From: Pseudomonadota bacterium
Lineage (GTDB): Bacteria; Myxococcota; Polyangia; Polyangiales; Polyangiaceae
Reading direction: 5' to 3'
Length of the DNA stretch: 22,489 nucleotides
Assembly (NCBI GenBank): GCA_023419055.1
Contig: JAEZYO010000480.1
Span: 1 to 22,489, forward strand
Below are positions 1,179 through 13,058 of the stretch, one piece after another (position 1 is the first letter of the stretch; the number at the start of each line of letters is the position of its first letter). A model generated the notes under the pieces. That model was not told the origin of the DNA. It worked only from the letters and a program-made list of their open reading frames with translations, and did not search any database. A program made the translations under genes and the position numbers.

Positions 1179-3425
1179 TTATTCGAACACGGCTCGGTTG
1201 ATCTCGTCGCAGAGCGCCGAGTCGTAGCGAAGCTTCGCGTCGTGCAGGCTCACTGCGGGCACCGCGCCCATCAACGAGTTCGTCAAGAACACCTGATCGG
1301 CACCGAGCAGATCCTCCACCGTGAGCCGTCGATCCTCGACGGTGAAGCCCCACTGCGAGAGGAGCCGCCGAACCTCGGCCGCCATCACACCCGGCAAGGC
1401 GTGCTCCGAAAGAGGGAAACACGCAGTGTCCGCGAACACGCAGCACACGCTAGCGGTGTTGGTCTCCGACACGGAGCGATCGACGTTGAGGATCAAGGCT
1501 TCGTCACCGCCTTGCCGCTTGGCCCAATCGCCGGCCAACTTGTAAGCCATGTAGTTGAGGGTCTTGTGGCTCGCCAAGTGTGTCTGCCGGACGTGCGGGT
1601 ACACGCGCAGGGACAACCCGGGCTTCGAGCTCAGAGCCGGACGAGGCGCGTACGGCCTCGCGCTCGCCATGAGCACTGGAGACGGGCGCGCGGCGCTCGG
1701 CTTTCCTGCCGCCGCCAAGATCTTGACGGCGGCGACCGCGCTCGAGAGCCCATTCTTCCGGATGATCTCCGCGATCACGTCGGCCCAGGTGATGTCCGGC
1801 GGCGCGCCCTCGAAGAACTCACGCCAGGCGAGCTCGAAGCGTTGCACGTGCGCGTCGAGCAGGATCGGGCGGCCAGCTTGAACCCTCAGCGTCTCGAAGA
1901 AGCCGAAGCCGTACGCCAGGCCTTCGCTGTCGATCGGGACGGACGCGGCGATGCTGGGCTTGAAGGCCCCGTTGTGCCAGACGATCTTGGTCGGCTCCTC
2001 GGCGCTCGTTGCGTCCAGCGCGTTCATGAGCGTGCGCCCTTTGTGGAGCGTCTCCTCGAACTCGCTCGCTGGATCCGAGTCGAACACGATGCCGCCGCCC
2101 ACGGAGAACACGACCTTTTCGCCGGTGAACGTCGCTGTTCGAATCGCGATCGAGAGATCCATCGAGCCGTCGAACCCGACGTAGCCGATGCTGCCCGTAT
2201 AAATGTGCCGGCGAACCGGCTCGAGCTCGTCGATGATTTCCATGGCCCGGATCTTCGGGCAGCCGGTGATCGAGCCCCCCGGAAAAGTCGCGCGGAGCAG
2301 ATCGACGGCGTCCATCCCGGGATCGAGCTCTCCCCTCACGATCGAAACGAGGTGGTGGACGTTCTGGTACCCCTCGAGGCGCTTGTGCTCGAGCACGCGC
2401 ACCGATCCGGCGCGGCAGACCTTGCCGATGTCGTTCCGGAGCAGGTCGACGATCATCGACAGCTCGGCGTCTTCCTTCTTGCTCTCCATGAGCTCCGTCC
2501 GCAGCGCCTCGTCCTCGGCTGGGGTCTGCCCGCGAGGCCGCGTGCCTTTGATGGGCCGTGTTTCCACGCTGCCGTTCCGGAGCTCGATGAAACGCTCGGG
2601 AGAGGTCGAAACGATCTGGTGATCCCCGGCGTTGATGTAAGCGAAGAAGGGGGCCGGATTCGCCGCATACGTGCTGGCGAAGGATTCGAAGGGATCCCCC
2701 GCGAACGGCCCCTGAAAGCGCTGCGACATGTTCACCTGGTAGACGTCGCCTTCGACGATGTACCTGCGGATCGCCTCGACCGCCGAGATGTACTCCGATC
2801 GCGAAAAGTCCGAGGCGCACTTGCCGGTGGCCTGGAGGCCGCGTTCGCGAGACGCGGGCGGGGCGCCGAGCGCCTGCTTGAAGCGCGCGACGTCTCGGCC
2901 GGCGCGAGCCTCATCGCCTTGCAAGCGCATCGAAAGGAGCGTCGTCGCGCCCGAGGCGCGTTCCTGGATCACGATGAGGGACGGCGCGACGAGGTGCATC
3001 AGCGGCAAACCGAGATCGTCGACGCTCGTTCTCGGCAGCTGTTCCAGGCAATCCTTCAGATCGTAGGCGAAGTAGCCGAGGAGCCCACTCGAGAGTGGCA
3101 GCGAAGGAAGCCCTGGCACCCGAGAGTGCTGCAGCAGCCGGCGCAGCGTGGCGAACGGGTCCTCCTCGAGCTCGACACGCTGGTCGCCGTCCGCGAGCGT
3201 GGTCCGCGTGCGGTGGCCGCTCAGCGAAAGCCAGGGATAGAGGCCGAGGATGTGGTGACGTGCCGAGTCGTGCGCTCCGCCGCTCATCAGAGCCACCGTG
3301 CCGGGCAGATGAGCGAAGCGGCGCACCACTTCCAGGAACGGTTCTCTCAGGTGGAGGGGTTCCGAGTCGACCCCGCTGACTTTTCTGAGCCAGGTCGGGC
3401 CGGGCTCGCTCGCAGCGTTCGTCAC
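1179..3425 (-). CDS. pabBC: Aminodeoxychorismate synthase component I fused to aminodeoxychorismate lyase (PabB-PabC)
   Basis: This 748-residue fusion should convert chorismate plus ammonia (from PabA) into 4-amino-4-deoxychorismate and then eliminate pyruvate to give p-aminobenzoate. Residues about 1-470 are the chorismate-binding enzyme. PIKGTRPRG is at 291-299, and Lys293 is the residue that distinguishes PabB (PIKGT) from anthranilate synthase TrpE (PIAGT). PGGSITGCPK is at 382-391. Residues about 480-748 are a class IV PLP lyase: the start FGFFETLR is seen, the Schiff-base Lys is probably Lys621 in HKTLNYM, and FLTNSLMGAVP near 713 is typical of PabC. The GTG start overlaps the pabA stop (GTGA), with AAAGGAG about 8 bases upstream, so translation is probably coupled. 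It is the last gene of the NRPS-pabA-pabBC unit. Such fusions are known in bacteria. What is unusual is the position behind an NRPS. Confidence 0.95.
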   Translation of the reverse strand: MTNAASEPGPTWLRKVSGVDSEPLHLREPFLEVVRRFAHLPGTVALMSGGAHDSARHHILGLYPWLSLSGHRTRTTLADGDQRVELEEDPFATLRRLLQHSRVPGLPSLPLSSGLLGYFAYDLKDCLEQLPRTSVDDLGLPLMHLVAPSLIVIQERASGATTLLSMRLQGDEARAGRDVARFKQALGAPPASRERGLQATGKCASDFSRSEYISAVEAIRRYIVEGDVYQVNMSQRFQGPFAGDPFESFASTYAANPAPFFAYINAGDHQIVSTSPERFIELRNGSVETRPIKGTRPRGQTPAEDEALRTELMESKKEDAELSMIVDLLRNDIGKVCRAGSVRVLEHKRLEGYQNVHHLVSIVRGELDPGMDAVDLLRATFPGGSITGCPKIRAMEIIDELEPVRRHIYTGSIGYVGFDGSMDLSIAIRTATFTGEKVVFSVGGGIVFDSDPASEFEETLHKGRTLMNALDATSAEEPTKIVWHNGAFKPSIAASVPIDSEGLAYGFGFFETLRVQAGRPILLDAHVQRFELAWREFFEGAPPDITWADVIAEIIRKNGLSSAVAAVKILAAAGKPSAARPSPVLMASARPYAPRPALSSKPGLSLRVYPHVRQTHLASHKTLNYMAYKLAGDWAKRQGGDEALILNVDRSVSETNTASVCCVFADTACFPLSEHALPGVMAAEVRRLLSQWGFTVEDRRLTVEDLLGADQVFLTNSLMGAVPAVSLHDAKLRYDSALCDEINRAVFE

Positions 3426-4012
3426 GAGAGCGCTCCTTTCAGCGGTCCCGAGCGCAAGAAGTTCTCGATCAGCAGAAACCCGTGCTGAGTCAAGAAGCTC
3501 TCGGGGTGGAACTGCACGCCGAACAGTGGATCGCGGACGTGTTGAACCCCCATGGGTACGCCGTCTTCGGAACGAGCGTTGACCCGGAGCTCCTCACTGA
3601 TGCCCGTGATGGCGAGGGAGTGGTAGCGCGCTACCGTGAGCGGTTGCGGAACGCCTGCGAAGAGGCCCGACCCGTCGTGATGAACCGCGCTGGTCTTGCC
3701 ATGCATCGGAACCGGCGCGTGCACCGTGCTGCCCCCGAACGCCTCGTTCATGCACTGCATGCCGAGGCACACGCCCAGAATGGGAAACTCGCCGTGGCAG
3801 CGACGGATGAGCTCGGTGGAGATTCCGGCGGCGCTCGGGCTCTTGGGCCCGGGGCTCACGAGCACGTAGTCGGGGCGCTCTCGCACGACGTCTTCTACCG
3901 AGAGCGCGTCCGCGCGGAACACGGAGATCGCAAGGTCGTAGCTCCGGAACATCTGCACGAGGTTGAAGGTGAACGAGTCGTAGTTATCGATGACGAGAAG
4001 CTTGAAAGTCAT
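3422..4012 (-). CDS. pabA: Aminodeoxychorismate synthase glutaminase subunit (PabA)
   Basis: A class I glutamine amidotransferase of 196 residues, the normal size for PabA/TrpG. It hydrolyses glutamine and passes ammonia to the PabB domain. The N-terminus has LLVIDNYDSFTFNL. The nucleophile is Cys82 in GVCLGMQ, and the remainder of the triad is His169 and Glu171 in FHPES. TrpG and PabA cannot be separated by sequence alone, but its partner here is PabB by the Lys293 criterion, so PabA is the better name. The ATG start has GAGG about 8 bases upstream. It lies 42 bp downstream of the NRPS stop and overlaps the pabBC GTG by four bases, which suggests one transcript. Confidence 0.93.
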   Translation of the reverse strand: MTFKLLVIDNYDSFTFNLVQMFRSYDLAISVFRADALSVEDVVRERPDYVLVSPGPKSPSAAGISTELIRRCHGEFPILGVCLGMQCMNEAFGGSTVHAPVPMHGKTSAVHHDGSGLFAGVPQPLTVARYHSLAITGISEELRVNARSEDGVPMGVQHVRDPLFGVQFHPESFLTQHGFLLIENFLRSGPLKGALS

Positions 4013-4054
4013 GCTCTGGCCTCGAATTCCGAGGAGTAGCGCCGCCGGGCAGCG

Positions 4055-7000
4055 CTACAACATCGTGAACCCCCCATCCACCGGCAGGTACGAGCCCGTC
4101 ATGAACCGCGCGAGGTCGCTCGCCAAGAAGAGCACGGCACCCGCCATGTCCTCGGGCAAGCCGTTGCGGCGCATCGGGCACCTCGAGGCGATCACCTCCT
4201 TGACCGCGGGTGACATCGGCATGGCCGCGTCCGTCAACGTCAGCCCGGGCGCGACCGTGTTGACGCGCACGCCGGAGGCGCCGAGCTCCGAGGCGAGCGC
4301 CCGCACGAAGGCGTCGACGGCGGCCTTGGCCGTGCTCTGCGCGAGGAACCCTTCATTGCCGCGCTTGGAGAGGCTGCTCGACACCGCGATGATGCTGCCG
4401 CTCTTGCGCCGCATCATCTCCGGGGCGACCGCCTGGCAGGGGTAGAAGATCGCTTTGAGCTCGTTGGTGACCTTCCGCTCGAGATCCGCCCAGTCGTACT
4501 CGATGAAGGGGCGGTGACGGAAGTTCATGTGCGCGTTCGCGACCAGCACGTCGATTCGCTCGAAGCGCTGGTGTACGGCCGCGACGAGGCCGGCCACGTC
4601 TTCGGCGCGCGTCACGTCTGCTCCGAAGATTTCCGCGGTTCCCCCTTCTGCCTCGATCTGCTCTTTGACGCTCCGCGCCTGGGCCTCACTGTCCCGATAG
4701 TTGATGGCTATCCTGGCGCCGTGCTCGGCGAGCAACAGCGCGGTGGCGAGCCCGATACCGCGGCTTCCGCCCGTGACCAGCGCCACCTTGTCCTGGAGGA
4801 GCCCCGAACCACCGCGCGGTTTCGGGGACCGTCGAGCGTTCGCCGAGGTCTGCGCTGCGCGATCGCTCGACGGTTGCCGAGCCACCTCGCGATCGATCTC
4901 CGCGGCCATCGCCTGGAGCCTCGGCTCGTCGAAGATCTTGGAGACACCGAGCTCTACCCGGAATACGTCCTTGATCCTCGCGAGGACACGCATGGCGGAG
5001 AGCGAGTGACCACCGATGTCGAAGAACCGCGTTTGGCGGCCGATGCGCTCGGCAGGCATGTTCACGACCAGCCCCCAGATCCCCGCGAGCGTCCGCTCCG
5101 TCGAGGTCACCGGAGGTTCGTACGGGTCGCTCTGTTGGAGCTCACCACGCGCCGAGAGGAGCGCGCGTCGATTCAGCTTGCCGTTCGGGAGCAGCGGCAT
5201 CGCGTCGAGCAAGACGAACACGTCCGGCACCATGTACGCGGGGAGCCTCTGCTGCAGAAACGCGCGGAGCTCCGCGAGCTCCACCGTGACGTCGGGCTCG
5301 CTCGTGTAGAACGCGAGCAGCCGCTCACCCTCCCCCACGACCGCTCGAGCGCGGATGCCAGCGAAGTCGCCCAGCACCTTCTCGACCTGGCGCACGTCGA
5401 CACGAAAGCCGCGCACCTTGACCTGAAAATCCCAGCGACCGATGAAGTCGAGCGTGCCGTCCGGCAAAAATCGCACGACGTCGCCCGTATTGTAGAGGCG
5501 AGCGCTCGGTTCAGCGCCAAAAGGATTGGTCGAGAAGCGTTCGGCGGTCAGGCTCTCGAGCCCGTGATAACCGTCGGGCAGACCCACGGACGCGACGTGC
5601 AGCTCGCCCGATACGCCTTCGGGCACCAACCTTCCCCGACGATCGAGCACGTAGATCTTCGTGTTGGCGATCGGCGTACCGATCGGGACGAAGTCGCGCT
5701 GCCCGTCGAAGCTCGACGTGTCGTAGTAGCAGATGTCGTTCAGCTCGGTGCACCCGTAGTTGTTCAGCAATCGCGCGTTCGGGAACATCTCGCGGAAGGC
5801 GAGCACGAGCGACTTCGGCAGCGGTTCACCAGCCGTGATGCACACCTTCAGCGCCGGCAAGCGCCGCCCGCTCACGCGCAGGTGGTCGATCACGCTCGCG
5901 AGGTGCGAGGGCCCGATGTTGAGGCGGCTGACCCGGTGCTCGCCGAGGGCCGAGACGAAGGCCGCCGCATCGCGCACCACGTCGTTCGCGATGAACACCT
6001 GAGGGCAGCCGTTGAGGAGGCCCGCGAACAGCTCCTTGACCGCAACGGCGAAGACGAAGGTCGTCTTCTGGCCCACTACCTCGCCTTGCTCGAAGGGGAG
6101 CCTGGTTTCCAGCGCGGAGAGCCAGTTCTCGAGCTGGCGATGAGGCACGCGGACGCCCTTGGGCTTGCCGGTGGACCCCGACGTGTACATCACGTAGGCG
6201 AGCGCGTCCGAGTCGGGACGCAACTCCGGCGGGTTGTCCAGGTACTTCGACTCGTCGTCCCAGACGTGTTCGAGCCTGAGACAGCGCGAGTCCTCGAGCT
6301 CGAGCAGGGCCTGTTGCTGGGCACCACAAACCACCGCGCCGGGGCGCGCGTCTTCGAGGATTTGCTGCACGTACGCCTTCGGGTACGCCGGATCGAGCGG
6401 CACGTACGCCGCGCCCGCCTTCCAGATGCCGAGCAGGGTCGCGAGCAGCTTTCCGCTCCGGTCGAGACACACGGCGACCAGGTCCCCGCGCCCGACGCCC
6501 CGCGCCGCGAGCGCGTGCGCCACCCGGTTCGCGTGCCGCGCGAGCTCGAGGTAGCTCAAGGCGCCACGCTCGTCCCAGCAGGCGACCGCGCTCGGCGCGC
6601 GCTCGACCTCGGCGTCGAAGCGCTGAACGAACGACTGGCGTGGGGCGCTCGTTACCGGCGCGCGATTGAACTCTTCGGTCAGCTTCCGAACGTCGGAGTC
6701 GCGCAGCAAAGGAAGATCGAGCACTCGACGGTTCGTGTCGCCGAACATGCCCTCCAGCACGCGCTGGTGGTGAGCGAGCAAGCGCTCGATGGCGTCGCGG
6801 TCGTAAAGATCGGAGGCATACACGACCTCGACGGCGAGCTCGTCCGGCCCTCCACCCTCGTACGACAGCTCGATCTCGCACCGCGCAGGCACGTGCTCTC
6901 TCGCGAGCAGCTTCTGGACCGCGTCGTCGTTCTCGGCCGGATCGGGGAAGGGGCGGAAGCTGACGCCGCCCGGCAGCTCGGCTCCCAGCGTGGTCTTGGG

Positions 7001-8143
7001 GAAATTCTGGTGCCGCATGACGATGGGCACCAGCGGGTTCGTGCTGCCGCGGTGCGCCGCGTCCGTCGCTTGCAAGATGCGTTCGAACGGCACGGCGTGC
7101 TCGAACGCGGTGAGCACCTGCGCGCGCACGGCCTTGAGCAGCGCCCCGACGCTGCTCTGCTCGTCGATGCGTAGCCGGAGCGGCAAGATATTGATGAAAA
7201 ACCCGATCAGCGGCTCGAACTCGACGTCCGTTCGGTTGGACGTCGTGGTTCCGATGCAGAGATCGTCCCGGTTCGTGTAGCGGCTGAGCGTGACCCCGAG
7301 CGCCGCGAGCAACGTCATGAAGAGCGTGCAGCCGTGCCGGCGAGACAAGCGCTCGAGGTTTTGCGAAAACTCGCGCGAGTAGCGATAGACGAAGGTAGCG
7401 CTGGTCGTGCAGGACTTTGCCTGCCGCGTCTGCACCGCGGGAAGCTCGAGGCTGTCCTCGTAACCCTCGAGCGTTCGACCCCAGTACTCGAGGCGAGCCG
7501 AGAGGTCCAAGGCCCGCTGCAGGGCTGCGTAGTCCTTGTACTGAACCGTGAGAGGCGCCCAAGCCGGCAGCTCTCCGCGAGAAGCCGAGGCGTAGGCGCT
7601 CTGGAGCTCTCCCAAGAAGATGGCCTTGAGCGACCAGGCATCCGCCGCGATGTGATGCACGTTGAACAAGAGCAGGTGCCGGTCGTCCGATAGGCGGAGC
7701 AAGCTTGCGATGAAGATCGGACCGCGGCGAAGGTCGAAGCGATGTTCGAGATGTCGCTCGAGGTGCTCCAGCATCCGAGCGCGGTCGGCGGCGATGACCG
7801 GCAGGCGCACGCGCTCGGGCGGCGCCACGAACTGAACGGGCTCTCCCTGCTCCGTTTGCCCGTAATACGTGCGTAGGCTCTCATGACGAGCGACGATTTC
7901 GCTCAGGCTCTGCTCGAGGGCCGGGACATCGAGGCTGCCCTCGACGAGCAGCATGAGAGGCAGGTTGTAGCTCGTATTCTGCGGATCGCGCAGGTAGTGG
8001 ATCCAGAGCCGCTCTTGAAACAAAGAGAGCGCGCTGCCCTTGGCGCTGCGATCGGGCAGAAGGCTCGCCGCGTGCGCGCCCCCGTCCTGCGCGAGCTCCG
8101 AATGACTCGTCACGTGATCAGACGAACCCTCATCCACGGTCAT
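4055..8143 (-). CDS. Single-module NRPS: C-A-PCP fused to C-terminal SDR-like domain, predicted aminobenzoate loading
   Basis: The protein is 1362 residues from the ATG at 8143, chosen because GGGAGGA lies about 7 bases upstream; an open frame extends 45 codons further to 8278 without comparable support. Condensation domain about 40-490: His163-His164 with Asp168 in HHIAADA (usual HHxxxDG), and C5-like IGFFINILPLR. Adenylation domain about 500-1000: YTSGSTGKPKG at 653-663, NYGCTELND near 795-803, NGK with Lys989. Gapless alignment to GrsA motifs gives pocket residues Ala699, Val700, Lys703, Asn742, Ile769, Ala771, Asn795, Asp803, Ile804, Lys989. The Asp235 equivalent is Ala, so an alpha-amino acid is unlikely. 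The code resembles that recalled for PABA domains of albicidin and cystobactamid synthetases. Carrier protein: Ser1047 in DIGGHS. SDR domain about 1115-1362: TGGSRGIG at 1124-1131, Ser1256 and Lys1273 kept, but the catalytic Tyr position is Gln1269. No thioesterase is present. PabA and PabBC follow in the same operon. Confidence 0.93.
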   Translation of the reverse strand: MTVDEGSSDHVTSHSELAQDGGAHAASLLPDRSAKGSALSLFQERLWIHYLRDPQNTSYNLPLMLLVEGSLDVPALEQSLSEIVARHESLRTYYGQTEQGEPVQFVAPPERVRLPVIAADRARMLEHLERHLEHRFDLRRGPIFIASLLRLSDDRHLLLFNVHHIAADAWSLKAIFLGELQSAYASASRGELPAWAPLTVQYKDYAALQRALDLSARLEYWGRTLEGYEDSLELPAVQTRQAKSCTTSATFVYRYSREFSQNLERLSRRHGCTLFMTLLAALGVTLSRYTNRDDLCIGTTTSNRTDVEFEPLIGFFINILPLRLRIDEQSSVGALLKAVRAQVLTAFEHAVPFERILQATDAAHRGSTNPLVPIVMRHQNFPKTTLGAELPGGVSFRPFPDPAENDDAVQKLLAREHVPARCEIELSYEGGGPDELAVEVVYASDLYDRDAIERLLAHHQRVLEGMFGDTNRRVLDLPLLRDSDVRKLTEEFNRAPVTSAPRQSFVQRFDAEVERAPSAVACWDERGALSYLELARHANRVAHALAARGVGRGDLVAVCLDRSGKLLATLLGIWKAGAAYVPLDPAYPKAYVQQILEDARPGAVVCGAQQQALLELEDSRCLRLEHVWDDESKYLDNPPELRPDSDALAYVMYTSGSTGKPKGVRVPHRQLENWLSALETRLPFEQGEVVGQKTTFVFAVAVKELFAGLLNGCPQVFIANDVVRDAAAFVSALGEHRVSRLNIGPSHLASVIDHLRVSGRRLPALKVCITAGEPLPKSLVLAFREMFPNARLLNNYGCTELNDICYYDTSSFDGQRDFVPIGTPIANTKIYVLDRRGRLVPEGVSGELHVASVGLPDGYHGLESLTAERFSTNPFGAEPSARLYNTGDVVRFLPDGTLDFIGRWDFQVKVRGFRVDVRQVEKVLGDFAGIRARAVVGEGERLLAFYTSEPDVTVELAELRAFLQQRLPAYMVPDVFVLLDAMPLLPNGKLNRRALLSARGELQQSDPYEPPVTSTERTLAGIWGLVVNMPAERIGRQTRFFDIGGHSLSAMRVLARIKDVFRVELGVSKIFDEPRLQAMAAEIDREVARQPSSDRAAQTSANARRSPKPRGGSGLLQDKVALVTGGSRGIGLATALLLAEHGARIAINYRDSEAQARSVKEQIEAEGGTAEIFGADVTRAEDVAGLVAAVHQRFERIDVLVANAHMNFRHRPFIEYDWADLERKVTNELKAIFYPCQAVAPEMMRRKSGSIIAVSSSLSKRGNEGFLAQSTAKAAVDAFVRALASELGASGVRVNTVAPGLTLTDAAMPMSPAVKEVIASRCPMRRNGLPEDMAGAVLFLASDLARFMTGSYLPVDGGFTML

Positions 8144-8149
8144 ACCTGT

Positions 8150-8157
8150 TCCTCCCA
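8150..8157 (-). promoter_or_regulatory. Shine-Dalgarno that fixes the NRPS start
   Basis: Read on the minus strand, GGGAGGAACAGGT directly precedes the ATG at 8143-8141. The purine-rich core is about 7 bases from the start codon. It selects this start over the longer open frame beginning at 8278, whose extra 45 residues lie outside any recognisable domain. Confidence 0.75.
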
Positions 8158-8400
8158 GGGCGGAATGCTCATCCGAGCCAGCGGTTCGTAAACCCTCTGG
8201 AATATCAGGGCGTACATTTGCACAAAACCAATCCGCCAACTTGAATATTTTGCGCTCCCACGCACGACCGAGCGCCACACGCGTCGACCGCTTCTTCCGG
8301 CATTCGGTCGTTCGGAAGGGGCACTTCGCGGAGCAGCTCGCGAACGCAGGATGAACGATCGATCATGCGGATCCGACGCGCTTGCGTGCGCCGTCGATTT

Positions 8401-8452: not shown

Positions 8453-10549
8453 TCAGCCTGCCGGGTTGCTGAACGTGGCGGCCGCCGGGGCCTTGACGAG
8501 CAGCGAGCGCTCCGCGACCGACGCGAGCAACATCTCGAGGCTCGTCATGGTGTGCGGCTTGTCCAGGAAGCCCACGACGTTCGGCATCTGGAGCAACATC
8601 GACGCGTCTTCCGCCTGAAAACCACTGGTAATCACGACCGGGATGTTGCTTCGAACGACGCGGAGCTGGTCGAGGGTCTGCTCGCCCGATTGCTCCGGCA
8701 TCGTGAGGTCGAGGACGACGAGGTCGATGGCGTCCGGCTGCTCCTTCAGGAGCTCGAGCCCTCGACGACCACTGTCCGCGGTGACGACCTGATGGCCGAG
8801 CTCGCTCAACATCCTGCCCGTCACCAACCGGACCGCGGGCTCGTCGTCGATGAGCAGAATGCTCCGGGCCGACGGCTGAACGACCGACAACGCGGGGCTG
8901 CTCGTTCGGCGTGGCACCGAATCCTGCGCGACGGGCAGCAGGATGGCAAAGCTCGTCCCTCGTGACGAAGTCCCGTCGACCCCGAGCCAACCGCGGTGCG
9001 CTCGCACGATGCCGGAGGCGGCGGCGAGGCCCATTCCGCGTCCCGCACCTTTCGTCGAGAAGAACGGTTCGAACAGGCGCTCGCGCGCTTCGGGGCGAAT
9101 GCCGACCCCGTTGTCGCTGACCGTCACTTTCACGTAGCTGCCCGGCGCGACCCCGTACGCCTCGCTGCGCTGCGCCTCGAGCTCCACGCTCTCGGTGCGC
9201 AGCGTCAGAGTCCCGCGCTTTCCTTCCATGGCATCCAACGCGTTGAGGATCAGATTCGTCACCACCTGGCGCAGCTGAAAGCGGTCGGCGCCGACGAGCG
9301 GCAGCGCGTCACCGAGCTCGAGGATGAGTTGCGCCCTGGATTCGACCGTGGCGTGCAGCAGACGGAGCGCCGCCGAGAGCTCCAGATTGATCTCGAGCGC
9401 CTGAATCGCGAGGCTCCGGCGCCCCGCGTAAGCCAGCATCTGCTTGCTCAGCTGGGCCGCTTCTCCCGCAAACGTCAGGATCTCCGTAATGCAGCGCGCC
9501 ACGATGGGCGGAGCGTCGTCAGGCACCTTGCGCAGCGCCACCTCCGCGTTGCCGACCACGCCCGAAAGCAGGTTGTTGAAGTCGTGAGCCACCCCGCCCG
9601 CCATGACGGCCAAGCTCTGCAGAGCCTGGCTCCGCTGCAGCTCTCGCTCCAGATCGCGCTGCCGGCGCTCCGTCACGACGCGATCCGTGAGATCCCGAAC
9701 TACCCGCAGCGTCAGCTCGTCCCGCGAGCCGTTCGGCTCGAAGCGCGTCTCTGTCACGAGCAGCAAGGTGCTCGCGTTCCGTTCGAGGACCACTTCGTAC
9801 GAGCGGCGGTCTCCGCTGTTCGGCGTCGAGGCGGCGAGCGTGCGGCGGCTCCCCGCGGTCAAGAACTCGGAGAAGGTCCTGGTGGACAGATCGTCGCGCG
9901 CGACGCCCAGCGTCTCGGCGAGCGCCTGGTTCGCGAAGACCACGCGATCCTGCGCGTCGAACAAGCCGACTCCCTCCCCCAGGCTTTCCACCAACGCGCG
10001 TTGCATCCGCTCGCTGTGGCGCAGGGACTCCTCGCTGCGCTCCCGGGCGTCGATCTCGCGACGCAGCTCCGCGTTCAGCTCCAGCACGCGCCGACGCGAG
10101 TCGACCACGAGGCCCAGCCCGCCCGCGACCACGAGCTTGACGAGCAACGCGATGATACCAGCCGCGCGCCCCGTCTCCGGGCTGGCCGCGAGCTGAAGAG
10201 CAAGGCCCCGTTCGAGGAACGCGACTCCGACGATCATGACGAGCGCGCCGCGCACGCCGAGCCACACCGCCGAAAGGATGCAGAGCCCCAAGCCGAGCAT
10301 GAAGGCGGGGTTGCCGATCAGAGCATGCAAGGTACCGAACGAAGCTCGGTAAGCGAGCACCAGGACAGCGAGGATGCAGCACCTCACCACGACGTCACGG
10401 TGCCCTTCCGACGAAGCTTTGCGAGCCGTGCCCCTCGATAGGAGCGATGGATACGCGCTGGTTAAGTGCGCTTCCTTCGGTTGAACCGAGGCCCCCGTGC
10501 TGCCCGAACCGAACATGTGACGGGTCATAGGCTGTCGCGGCCGCCCCAT
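8453..10549 (-). CDS. Membrane-anchored hybrid histidine kinase with C-terminal receiver domain
   Basis: About 698 residues from the ATG at 10549; a TTG immediately before it, or ATGs at 10528 and 10516, are possible starts and none has a clear Shine-Dalgarno. Hydrophobic segments at about 53-75, 84-97, 101-120 and 130-150 form an N-terminal membrane sensor. A coiled-coil-like stretch (150-185) leads to a PAS domain (about 185-290). The dimerisation domain has His323 in GGVAHDFNNLLS, the class of kinases with an HDFNN phosphorylation box. The ATPase domain shows Asn437, DNGVGI at 480-485 and GRGMGLA near 504. The receiver domain (about 563-680) has the Asp569/Asp570 acidic pair, phospho-acceptor Asp615 and Lys665. 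(Numbers count the TTG codon as residue 1.) No separate response regulator or output domain is adjacent, so its target is unknown. Its position upstream of the NRPS operon suggests but does not show a regulatory link. Confidence 0.92.
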   Translation of the reverse strand: MGRPRQPMTRHMFGSGSTGASVQPKEAHLTSAYPSLLSRGTARKASSEGHRDVVVRCCILAVLVLAYRASFGTLHALIGNPAFMLGLGLCILSAVWLGVRGALVMIVGVAFLERGLALQLAASPETGRAAGIIALLVKLVVAGGLGLVVDSRRRVLELNAELRREIDARERSEESLRHSERMQRALVESLGEGVGLFDAQDRVVFANQALAETLGVARDDLSTRTFSEFLTAGSRRTLAASTPNSGDRRSYEVVLERNASTLLLVTETRFEPNGSRDELTLRVVRDLTDRVVTERRQRDLERELQRSQALQSLAVMAGGVAHDFNNLLSGVVGNAEVALRKVPDDAPPIVARCITEILTFAGEAAQLSKQMLAYAGRRSLAIQALEINLELSAALRLLHATVESRAQLILELGDALPLVGADRFQLRQVVTNLILNALDAMEGKRGTLTLRTESVELEAQRSEAYGVAPGSYVKVTVSDNGVGIRPEARERLFEPFFSTKGAGRGMGLAAASGIVRAHRGWLGVDGTSSRGTSFAILLPVAQDSVPRRTSSPALSVVQPSARSILLIDDEPAVRLVTGRMLSELGHQVVTADSGRRGLELLKEQPDAIDLVVLDLTMPEQSGEQTLDQLRVVRSNIPVVITSGFQAEDASMLLQMPNVVGFLDKPHTMTSLEMLLASVAERSLLVKAPAAATFSNPAG

Positions 10550-10679
10550 CAAGCGTTGTGGTGAGTCGGCGCAACCGTCTCTAAATGCGAGCGCGCGGTT
10601 CGACTAGCTCTGTCCGCCGCGCCTTGGTTCCGGAGCTTTCGCGTGAGGAGAATCACCCGCTGCGCGCGTCCGCCGTCCC

Positions 10680-13058
10680 TCAAGCAAGGAGCGCCCCGGC
10701 CCGGATGTTCGCCGCTGGAAGCCCCTGCGCGCCCTTTGCGGCGCGGCTGAACGCCGAGATCGTGAGGACCGCGGTCAGCCAGGACGCGGCGAGCAAGCAC
10801 TCGACCAGCTGCTTTGCCCAGCTCCCCTGGCTCATGCCTCCCCAAACGAAGTTCGAGCACAGATAGAGCAGCTTCACGCCCAAAAGAACTCCCCCAGAGT
10901 GGGCAGCTCGGTTGACGCGCTCGACGTCCGTGGTCTGACGAGACCAAGAGCTCAGCACCAGGATGACGCCGGCGCTGTAGTAGAGGCAGAGCATGGCCCC
11001 GGTGAGCGGCAACCAAAGCGGCAGCGCTCCGCCCAGAAAGCCTGCCAGTACCTTGACGTCGCTCGGCGAGATGCGATTTCCCTCAGCGACCACGAACAGG
11101 TAGCCCAAGGCGACCAGCATCGCGCCGCGTAGCCAGGGCGCCAGGCGCTCCCCCAGCCTTCGCTCCAATTCTGCCCGCTCGAGCAGGCGAGGGGCGAACG
11201 CGCCGACCAACAACAAGAACGACCATTGGAGCCCGCCCATCTGCAAGTTGGAGAGCGTGAGTAGAGCGCCCTCCAGCGCGCCGAGACTGGACGCACCCCA
11301 TCGCCGACCGAGCAACATGCACCCTGCGACGAACAGGGGCAGGTAGGGTCGCAGAGCCACGGGGCACGCGAACGCGAGCAACGGGATCGAGAGCGGCGCC
11401 GAGAGCCTGGTCGTGAGCGATCCGCCGCCCGTGGTCCAGCCGTAGAGCGCGGCAGCGGGCACCGTGAGGAGCAGCGCACGTGCTCCCTGCAGGTCTTTCG
11501 TCGAGTCGAGGACGTACGTCCAGCCGAGCGCGGTGATCAGCGCCGATGCCGTCGCGACGAACAGGGTCAGCGCCACGCGCGCGCGGTACGGCGCGGCGAA
11601 CCAGGCGCCCAGCAAGAGAGCGAACGGAGCGACGAGGATCACCCAGTGAGCCTCGGTGACGGAGATCGAAGCGCCCGCGACGAAAACGAGGAGAGCGCCC
11701 CAGCGTCGCGAGTGCCGACGCAGCAGGGCCGCGAGCGCGATCACCAGCAAGAGCAGCGTCCCGCCGTAAGCGAGCCCCGCCGCCCCCAAGCTGAGCTGCG
11801 GCAGCGCATAGTGAGCCAGGAGCACTTGTAGCGCGACGAACCCCGCTCCCAGCCAGAAGAGCGGCGCGTAGAAGGCGGTTCCGTCCACCTGCGCGGCGAC
11901 GAGCAAAAGGAGCACCGAAAGCACCACTGGTAGGATTGACAGACCGAGGCGCAGGCTCGACGGTTGCTTGAGGTCGGCGATCTGCCTCGAGATCTCGTCT
12001 GCGCTGCTCGCTGCTCGAACGGAAACGCCGCGCGAGCGCGCGAGCTCGCTGAGGAGCGTTCGCTTTTGCGCGACGAGCTCCGCCTCGAGCTCGGTCCGTC
12101 GAACCCTGTCTCCGGTCGAAAGTACGGCAGGCACCCCACCCTCGCTCATCGCTGGAATGGGCGCGCCCAGCAAGACCGAAATGAGCGTGGGCACGTCCGC
12201 CTGCGACAGGGGCGCGGGGCACTCGCCCCGCACGATCCCGGGCCCCCAAGCCGCGAAGAACGACGCTCGCGTCTCCGGCTGGTCCCCGCCGTGATTCCCG
12301 GAATCGAGCGCCCCGTGATCGCTCGTGACGATCCAGGTGGTCGCGCCGTCACCCTGACTTTCGACCGAGCGGAGCTGCTCGTCCAGGCCGCGCGCGTACT
12401 CGACGTAAGCCTGACCGAAGAGCCCGTGGAGGTGCGCCCGGTGATCGATCACGGGGTCGTGCCAAACGCAGAGATCGCAGTGCTCCTCCGAGAGCGCTCG
12501 CTCGAAGAGCTCGCTGCCCGGCAGCTTCTCGTCGGCGTAGGGCCCCAGATCGCGCACCGTGACCGCGCGCGCGACGTGACGCCCGAAGAGATCGCTCCAG
12601 ACTCGTTCTCCGATGACGACCGTGCGCTTGCCGGCCCTCGTGACGCTCGCCGGCAATGAATCTGCTTGCAGGGGTCGAGCCTGAAAGTTCTGCGGCAGGA
12701 GCGCCAGCGTGGGAAACGCCCCCGTGCCGAGCGTGTACACGCCAGTCACGGTGAACGTGAGCGGACCGGCCGTGCTCGGACAAAGGACCCCGCGGGAACG
12801 CGCAAGCTCGTACGTCCGCGGGAACGTCGCGGCGAAACGATCGAAGCGCACTCCATCCAGAACGACGAGCGCCACCCTCCGGGTGAGGGCGGCGCGCGCT
12901 ACCGGCGGTGAAACGATGGTCACGTCGTCGGAGCGGAAGCGCTGGCGCGCGAGCGACGCAAGGCCCACGGCCAGGAGCACGAGCGCGCCGAGCACGCGAA
13001 CGGCGCCGAGCAGCGCCCAGCCGCGATCTTTCCCGAACACACCACCTGCCCGCGACAC
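10680..13058 (-). CDS. Polytopic alkaline-phosphatase-superfamily protein, GPI ethanolamine-phosphate-transferase-like
   Basis: 792 residues from a GTG start. One N-terminal membrane segment (about 14-36) is followed by a soluble catalytic domain with alkaline-phosphatase-fold metal sites: Asp68 in VVLDGVRFD, a Thr cluster at 101-105 as likely nucleophile (TFTVTG), Asp205 and His209 in DHRAH, Asp247-His248 in TSDHG, and His256. From about 370 to the end the protein is almost entirely hydrophobic, with roughly 13-16 membrane segments. This order (TM, phosphotransferase domain, many TMs) is that of eukaryotic PIG-N/PIG-O/PIG-G enzymes, which transfer ethanolamine phosphate to GPI anchors. Bacteria lack GPI anchors, so the substrate is open; a lipid or glycan phospho-modification in the cell envelope is plausible. 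It lies 130 bp upstream of the kinase gene on the same strand. Confidence 0.78.
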   Translation of the reverse strand: MSRAGGVFGKDRGWALLGAVRVLGALVLLAVGLASLARQRFRSDDVTIVSPPVARAALTRRVALVVLDGVRFDRFAATFPRTYELARSRGVLCPSTAGPLTFTVTGVYTLGTGAFPTLALLPQNFQARPLQADSLPASVTRAGKRTVVIGERVWSDLFGRHVARAVTVRDLGPYADEKLPGSELFERALSEEHCDLCVWHDPVIDHRAHLHGLFGQAYVEYARGLDEQLRSVESQGDGATTWIVTSDHGALDSGNHGGDQPETRASFFAAWGPGIVRGECPAPLSQADVPTLISVLLGAPIPAMSEGGVPAVLSTGDRVRRTELEAELVAQKRTLLSELARSRGVSVRAASSADEISRQIADLKQPSSLRLGLSILPVVLSVLLLLVAAQVDGTAFYAPLFWLGAGFVALQVLLAHYALPQLSLGAAGLAYGGTLLLLVIALAALLRRHSRRWGALLVFVAGASISVTEAHWVILVAPFALLLGAWFAAPYRARVALTLFVATASALITALGWTYVLDSTKDLQGARALLLTVPAAALYGWTTGGGSLTTRLSAPLSIPLLAFACPVALRPYLPLFVAGCMLLGRRWGASSLGALEGALLTLSNLQMGGLQWSFLLLVGAFAPRLLERAELERRLGERLAPWLRGAMLVALGYLFVVAEGNRISPSDVKVLAGFLGGALPLWLPLTGAMLCLYYSAGVILVLSSWSRQTTDVERVNRAAHSGGVLLGVKLLYLCSNFVWGGMSQGSWAKQLVECLLAASWLTAVLTISAFSRAAKGAQGLPAANIRAGALLA

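Follow-up and report, generated by a model that had tools for sequence, protein, structure and literature searches.

A three-gene unit predicted to make and activate PABA, with a one-module NRPS ending in an unusual SDR domain

The window analyzed here, a stretch of 22,489 nt from a Polyangiaceae bacterium, carries on its minus strand three tightly packed genes: a one-module NRPS, pabA and a pabB-pabC fusion. That this operon combines a dedicated supply of PABA with the activation of PABA is well supported by sequence comparison. Our overall explanation, which we regard as somewhat probable, is that a self-contained three-gene unit makes PABA, loads it onto a carrier domain and forms an amide with it.

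Gene layout and PABA supply

As read from its ORF and from Pfam matches, the first gene (4055..8143, minus strand) encodes a single-module NRPS with the domain order C-A-PCP-SDR. The frame is open across 4055-8278 (minus), and the likely start is the ATG at 8143, with a GGGAGG ahead of it at 8156-8151; this start yields 1362 residues, as many as in the deposited copy P0004. The NRPS stop (TAG, 4057-4055) is separated by a gap of 42 nt from the ATG, at 4012, of pabA (3422..4012, minus; ORF and Pfam GATase), which encodes the glutamine amidotransferase of aminodeoxychorismate synthase. The pabA stop overlaps by 4 nt (3422-3425) the GTG start of the third gene (1179..3425, minus), whose product fuses aminodeoxychorismate synthase component I, bearing the motif PIKGT, to a lyase of aminotransferase-IV fold. 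In the three genes, GC by codon position (about 0.65/0.45/0.85) is the same as in the other minus-strand genes of the window, so the three ORFs agree with real genes. Judging from the gene spacing, NRPS, pabA and pabBC would share a single transcript. No sigma-70-like promoter was found for the operon, and terminator-like matches numbered 5, against 4.5 expected.

The gap and the overlap bear out the gene order, tight spacing and translational coupling described in the initial annotation, and Pfam matches do the same for its C-A-PCP module with an SDR-like end. It had also pointed to the absence of a thioesterase, exporter or further tailoring enzyme; indeed, none of these families was matched in the 12 other, larger ORFs of the window that were scanned, and there was no second NRPS among them.

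Directly upstream of the operon and on the same strand lies a gene for a CckA-like hybrid histidine kinase (8453-10552, minus). A further gene of the window encodes a 792-residue membrane protein (10680-13058, minus) whose N-terminal part is phosphodiesterase-like, by a weak Pfam match. We take this protein to resemble eukaryotic GPI ethanolamine phosphate transferases, which would be odd in a bacterium.

PabA matches GATase in Pfam, and the PabB-PabC fusion matches Anth_synt_I_N, Chorismate_bind and Aminotran_4. The motif PIKGT is a mark of the aminodeoxychorismate synthase PabB, the TrpE counterpart being PIAGT. A PabA of GATase type, a PabB with PIKGT rather than PIAGT and a PabC with the aminotransferase-IV fold together support the full chorismate-to-PABA route that had been assigned to these genes. 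With NCBIfam models, TIGR00553 (pabB) scored 343.6 bits, above its cut-off of 328.4; TIGR00564 (trpE_most) gave the top bit score, 384, yet remained below its own cut-off of 517.7. TIGR03461 (pabC) reached 89.5 bits, below the cut-off of 176.85, and TIGR00566 (trpG_papA), a model that does not separate PabA from TrpG, reached 186.1 bits, above 121.05.

Second copies of pabB were sought in six genomes (G002, G003, G270, G305, G492 and G516), all six of which contain folP. Two from the genus Actinoplanes, G492 and G516, have one and two further PIKGT-type PabB genes outside the operon, respectively. In G002, G270 and G305, the operon PabB was the sole PIKGT-type copy found, with a PIAGT-type TrpE elsewhere; in G003, where the NRPS lies at a contig end, the search returned a PIAGT-type gene only and no PIKGT-type PabB. 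Depending on the host, the pab genes can thus be reserved for the NRPS or may supply folate synthesis as well: because no second PabB was found in G002, G270 and G305, they are perhaps not exclusive to the NRPS there. Sole copies in genomes with folP are also what would be expected if these genes simply made PABA for folate and the NRPS stood next to them by chance. The additional PabB genes of G492 and G516 argue against such an arrangement, as does the conserved synteny described below.

Adenylation and condensation domains

The adenylation domain (5156..6619, minus, with boundaries that we set; AMP-binding 554-904 and AMP-binding_C 965-1034 in P0001 numbering) has the pocket AVKNIANDIK, its ten positions being placed by eye on the GrsA numbering. 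The peptidyl carrier domain (4898..5092, minus; Pfam PP-binding, P0001 residues 1063-1127) contains the sequence GGHSL. The pocket is AVKN[IV]AND[IV]K in 24/24 aligned rows. Across the 189 listed proteins of the family (window copy and partial proteins included), residue 235 is Ala in 187 and Val in 2, whereas, as a background, Asp occupies this position in 300 of 308 A domains taken from the 80 loci listed, a count that includes the window's own.

In the lapcin paper, the DNA pattern ARAARA(N11)TTYGCNRT(N7)AARGAR is termed unique to known PABA A domains, and Ala at 235 is named for such domains (PMC8837603); the pattern spans 38 bases as printed there, and 47 according to the accompanying text. 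Both features occur in the window NRPS. The signature matches once in the whole window, inside the A domain (6032..6069, minus; protein QKTTFVFAVAVKE), and not once in 100 shuffles. Its protein form was found in the window, L001 and L002 only, among the 308 A domains mentioned above. The pocket of L001 is AVKHYANDMK, so that the pocket varies within the NRPS family. The published signature and the conserved pocket support the aminobenzoate-type pocket proposed in the initial annotation; the predicted substrate is very probably PABA or a close aminobenzoate.

The window pocket differs from the PABA code AVKYVANDxK at position 278, where it has Asn in place of Tyr. This substitution would suit an A domain that activates some other achiral aryl acid, such as 4-hydroxybenzoate, 3-aminobenzoate or aminodeoxychorismate, with the pab genes serving a different step. 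The same may be said of residue 236 (Val in 142, Pro in 36 and Ala in 11 of the 189 listed proteins), as Ala-Pro at 235/236 occurs in 36 of them. We find this quite improbable, since the published signature is matched exactly and since pabA and pabB are direct neighbors of the NRPS in six loci (window included) and in L003. The latter (L003:628-8158, Granulicella mallensis) has pabA, pabB and, as a gene of its own, pabC immediately ahead of an NRPS of the type C-A-PCP-C with pocket VVKNIANDLK, and is a different PABA-type cluster.

The condensation domain (6680..8032, minus; Pfam Condensation, P0001 residues 83-533) has an intact HHxxxD (VHHIAADAWS), a motif kept in 176/176 rows where it is aligned, among the 189 listed proteins. 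We placed it in a tree comprising 285 C domains, including 6 from the family, with subtype labels taken from architecture only. The nearest outside relative of the family C domain is that of L067 (Rugamonas sp. CCM 8940; support 0.871), and the nearest outside neighbors comprise L067, whose C domain follows a carrier, and L003, whose C domain opens its protein. The C domain in L067:1-6222 sits after a degenerate A domain, in a module whose pocket, cut by the contig end, reads AVKHVANDV. Module 4 of cystobactamid CysK, which is a PABA module, likewise comes after one whose A domain is inactive (PMC7966384). This arrangement in the nearest relative points to a common ancestry of the family's C-A pair and a PABA module, in which case the acceptor would be PABA-S-PCP. 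As a whole, the L067 NRPS resembles albicidin/cystobactamid-type lines.

Mean distances from the family C domain were 3.15 to the 182 domains after a carrier, 3.22 to the 72 that are first in their protein and 3.90 to the 15 after another C-like domain. A well-supported group of 75 rows around the family contains 23 after-carrier and 26 first-in-protein domains and all 15 of those after a C-like domain; its inner forks are weak (0.26-0.35). The best matches among solved C-domain structures were Txo2 and Txo1. From these comparisons, a starter-type (lipo-initiating) C domain is not favored, though the after-carrier and first-in-protein mean distances are hardly apart.

Some free-standing condensation domains join a loaded donor to a soluble amine. 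By analogy, loaded PABA could be the donor, which the C domain would join to a soluble amine, thereby releasing a p-aminobenzoyl conjugate, while the SDR would modify the amine or the product. The NRPS has no thioesterase, universal metabolites would suffice as reactants (fitting a unit found in several phyla) and the 285-domain tree fits more than one subtype of C domain, all of which would be compatible with this scheme. We nonetheless consider it unlikely, given that the C domain precedes its A domain and that its nearest relative, in L067, belongs to a PABA-type module within a longer line.

The terminal SDR domain

The end domain of the NRPS (4064..4789, minus) is an SDR with a predicted FabG-like fold and a Glu-Ser-Gln-Lys active site. 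Its Pfam matches, in P0001 numbering, are adh_short (1164-1356) and adh_short_C2 (1173-1405), and also KR. The cofactor motif TGGSRGIG, in the context VTGGSRGIG, has the classical form TGxxxGxG. Classical SDRs rely on the catalytic residues Asn-Ser-Tyr-Lys, whose positions were fixed here by FabG alignments. Among the 189 listed proteins, the Tyr position is taken by Gln in 103 and by His in 86, with no Tyr at all, and the Asn position by Glu in every one, the window copy included; Ser persists in 187 and Lys in all 189. Thus, the domain shares fold and cofactor motif with FabG-type ketoreductases and departs from the classical catalytic set in the loss of Tyr and Asn. A candidate enoyl-reductase-like Tyr-x6-Lys site was rejected, as its Tyr occurs in 47 of the 189 proteins and is Phe in 140, including the window.

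Despite these losses, the SDR shows the highest average conservation of all the domains. In 23 rows compared with the window, identities were 60-88% for the SDR, 47-83% for C and 55-85% for A; taken row by row (rounded values), SDR identity was higher than that of A in 17/23, equal in 3 and lower in 3. This suggests that the domain is kept by selection, yet as a non-classical SDR. Foldseek and sequence both point to the FabG-like fold; the predicted structure has a mean pLDDT of 78.9, with active-site and substrate-side loops below 50. The domain might also be non-catalytic.

The R domains of NRPSs are extended SDRs of the NAD_binding_4 type, and Dieckmann-type R* domains have also lost catalytic residues. 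The window SDR matched adh_short_C2, adh_short and KR only, and not NAD_binding_4. Like the window end domain, terminal R domains are SDR-superfamily domains placed after a carrier; they keep Ser/Thr-Tyr-Lys (PMC8949500), unlike the FabG-like SDR with its Glu-Ser-Gln/His-Lys. The loss of Tyr and Asn, as well as the fungal homologs discussed below, had no counterpart in the initial annotation.

Distribution, proposed product and significance

The order NRPS-pabA-pabB(C), on one strand, recurs in five further loci from at least two phyla, with identities of 48-84% to the window. NRPS identities are 49.7% (L093), 48.6% (L091), 49.0% (L092), 72.3% (L095) and 68.3% (L096); the ranges for PabA and PabB(C) are 64-84% and 51-74%. 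L093 is from a Chitinispirillaceae MAG and L091 and L092 were drawn from the same phylum, probably Fibrobacterota, while L095 (whose unit is without the PabC half) and L096 come from genomes in the genus to which Actinoplanes sp. DH11 belongs. Moreover, the lists of NRPS and PabBC matches show 30 exact coincidences of contig size, out of 125 distinct NRPS contig sizes of at least 10 kb; in the range 10-500 kb, there were 28 against 0.11 expected when sizes were jittered by 10%. The synteny check proposed at the outset therefore came out in favor of a conserved association, and the possibility raised then, that the NRPS neighbor would not be conserved in relatives, did not materialize. Order and strand are kept across phyla at about 50-70% NRPS identity, and, with the 28 coincidences, this makes a chance neighbor beside ordinary folate genes extremely unlikely: that reading is largely refuted by conserved synteny.

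The unit was found in 4/120 genomes from the phylum of G002, in 3/40 from its class (the same genomes as three of the phylum's four) and in 3/67 from the genus of G005, one of these with a partial NRPS. None was detected in the phylum of G001 (0/195, with 3 candidates scored per genome; the Sorangium lineage may be outside the sample), in the family (0/150, 4 candidates per genome) or class (0/345, 2 candidates per genome) of G005 or in a further set of six genomes (0/6). The partial NRPS at L097:10162-12453 (Actinoplanes genus) has no pab genes beside it and is possibly a decaying unit; in L002 (Fibrobacter MAG, at a contig end), no pab gene was present in the 1.9 kb after the NRPS. The 80 loci listed, gathered with generic patterns and not a census, contain family members in L001 and L002 only and a pabA or pabBC match in L001 and L003 only.

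No conserved additional neighbor gene was recognized among 20 selected neighbor proteins scanned. Neighbors include a GH5 cellulase (L093/L094), a PfkB kinase and pyruvate:ferredoxin oxidoreductase (L091), an alpha/beta hydrolase (L092), MFS and histidine kinase proteins (L095) and an aldo-keto reductase and FAD enzyme (L096). A gyrase/topoisomerase IV-like pair (L093:17875-19692, L094:693-2585) starts about 1.4 kb behind the operon of the Chitinispirillaceae MAG; topoisomerases are the targets of known PABA compounds, but this may be an ordinary chromosomal pair.

With one module, no thioesterase and no initiating module, the NRPS could be imagined to hand PABA in trans to a bigger assembly line whose genes lie in another part of the genome. 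This is decidedly improbable: within the flanking sequence examined, which reached about 10 kb at most, there is no further NRPS match in L091-L093 and L095 and only a weak, 26% A-domain-like gene in L096, and the NRPS has a C domain of its own with HHxxxD intact.

We instead favor a unit that works by itself. PabA and PabB would convert chorismate and glutamine to aminodeoxychorismate, from which the PabC half would release PABA; the A domain would adenylate PABA and load the PCP. The C domain would then form an amide on the aniline nitrogen of PCP-loaded PABA, a step for which we see about even chances. As there is no other carrier protein in the unit, the donor would most likely be delivered in trans, either by a second PABA-loaded copy of the NRPS, giving a short PABA-PABA amide, or as a common acyl donor. 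In the flanks seen the unit is self-contained, so donor and acceptor are probably PABA or universal metabolites, hence our guess of acylation or PABA-PABA coupling. The latter in particular is doubtful, because the C-domain tree fits more than one subtype. Finally, the Tyr-less SDR, which stands where a release domain would and keeps its NAD(P) motif, may finish or release the product non-classically. PABA loading, amide formation, the donor, the SDR reaction and the product are all what we infer from the domains and their relatives.

The PABA-built compounds known so far, albicidin, cystobactamid and lapcin, inhibit topoisomerases and come from large assembly lines. The albicidin synthetase has PABA-specific A domains with Ala at 235, like the window A domain; unlike the window NRPS, it is a multi-module line and is not known to end in an SDR domain. 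Clusters of these three types have several modules and several PABA A domains, with thioesterase release as in CysK/CysG, whereas the operon has one module, an SDR and no thioesterase. Cystobactamid CysK/CysG, also myxobacterial, likewise contain PABA-activating C-A-PCP modules, and CysK module 4 follows an inactive-A module just as the L067 C-A pair follows a degenerate A domain; however, they amount to six modules with a thioesterase and tailoring genes (PMC7966384). Similarly, the lapcin lap cluster shares the PABA signature with the window A domain, but PMC8837603 gives it ten modules in five genes and a predicted decapeptide. PABA-using NRPSs (multi-module) and R-type end domains (another SDR class) are therefore already known; no report of this C-A-PCP-SDR plus pab unit was found in the open-licence PMC literature, outside of which subscription journals mostly lie.

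Named hosts include Sorangium, Polyangiaceae, Actinoplanes, Cellulomonas, Kineosporiaceae, Chitinispirillaceae, Fibrobacteria and a Clostridia MAG, together with Sordariales and the chytrid Rhizophlyctis among the fungi. For five of the eight named fungal proteins the contig measures 0.66-8.8 Mb, a size that argues against bacterial contamination; such contamination is possible for the Mycothermus copy (103 kb contig) and for the two Rhizophlyctis copies (49 and 7 kb). When 29 chosen rows were placed in a midpoint-rooted NRPS tree, the seven from fungi (P0090, P0096, P0097, P0098, P0100, P0104 and P0107; Sordariales and Rhizophlyctis) formed one group (97/98), beside Actinoplanes utahensis (98/97), within a larger group (96/99) that holds, besides the fungi, four actinobacterial and two environmental rows. 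Hence, the NRPS gene was apparently transferred from a bacterium to fungi. The fungal pockets, AAKN... or AVKNFANDIK, keep Ala in the 235 position. The best 120 PabBC matches include no named fungal protein, so the fungi probably have only the NRPS gene of the unit and draw on PABA of their own making.

Many of the named hosts, from Sorangium, Cellulomonas, Actinoplanes, Fibrobacteria, Chitinispirillaceae, Sordariales and Rhizophlyctis, are degraders of cellulose or other plant polymers. A link of the unit to cellulose degradation is a lead, drawn from a host list with no control set behind it.

Because distantly related bacteria share the set and the synthetase also occurs in some fungi, the product is probably a natural product not yet known. 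At about 7 kb, the unit could be moved whole to a laboratory host, and it has many relatives in environmental sequence; its SDR-type end domain has an active site unlike that of classical SDRs. Fungal homologs beside actinobacterial sequence suggest a useful product whose function is testable in both kingdoms. More tentatively, and with less than even confidence, we picture a minimal mobile unit that would make a small aromatic PABA amide, possibly a PABA-PABA oligomer, through a new Glu-Ser-Gln/His-Lys release or tailoring chemistry; its synthetase gene would have passed between phyla and from actinobacteria to fungi, mostly among plant-polymer degraders, in which the product may have a shared role.
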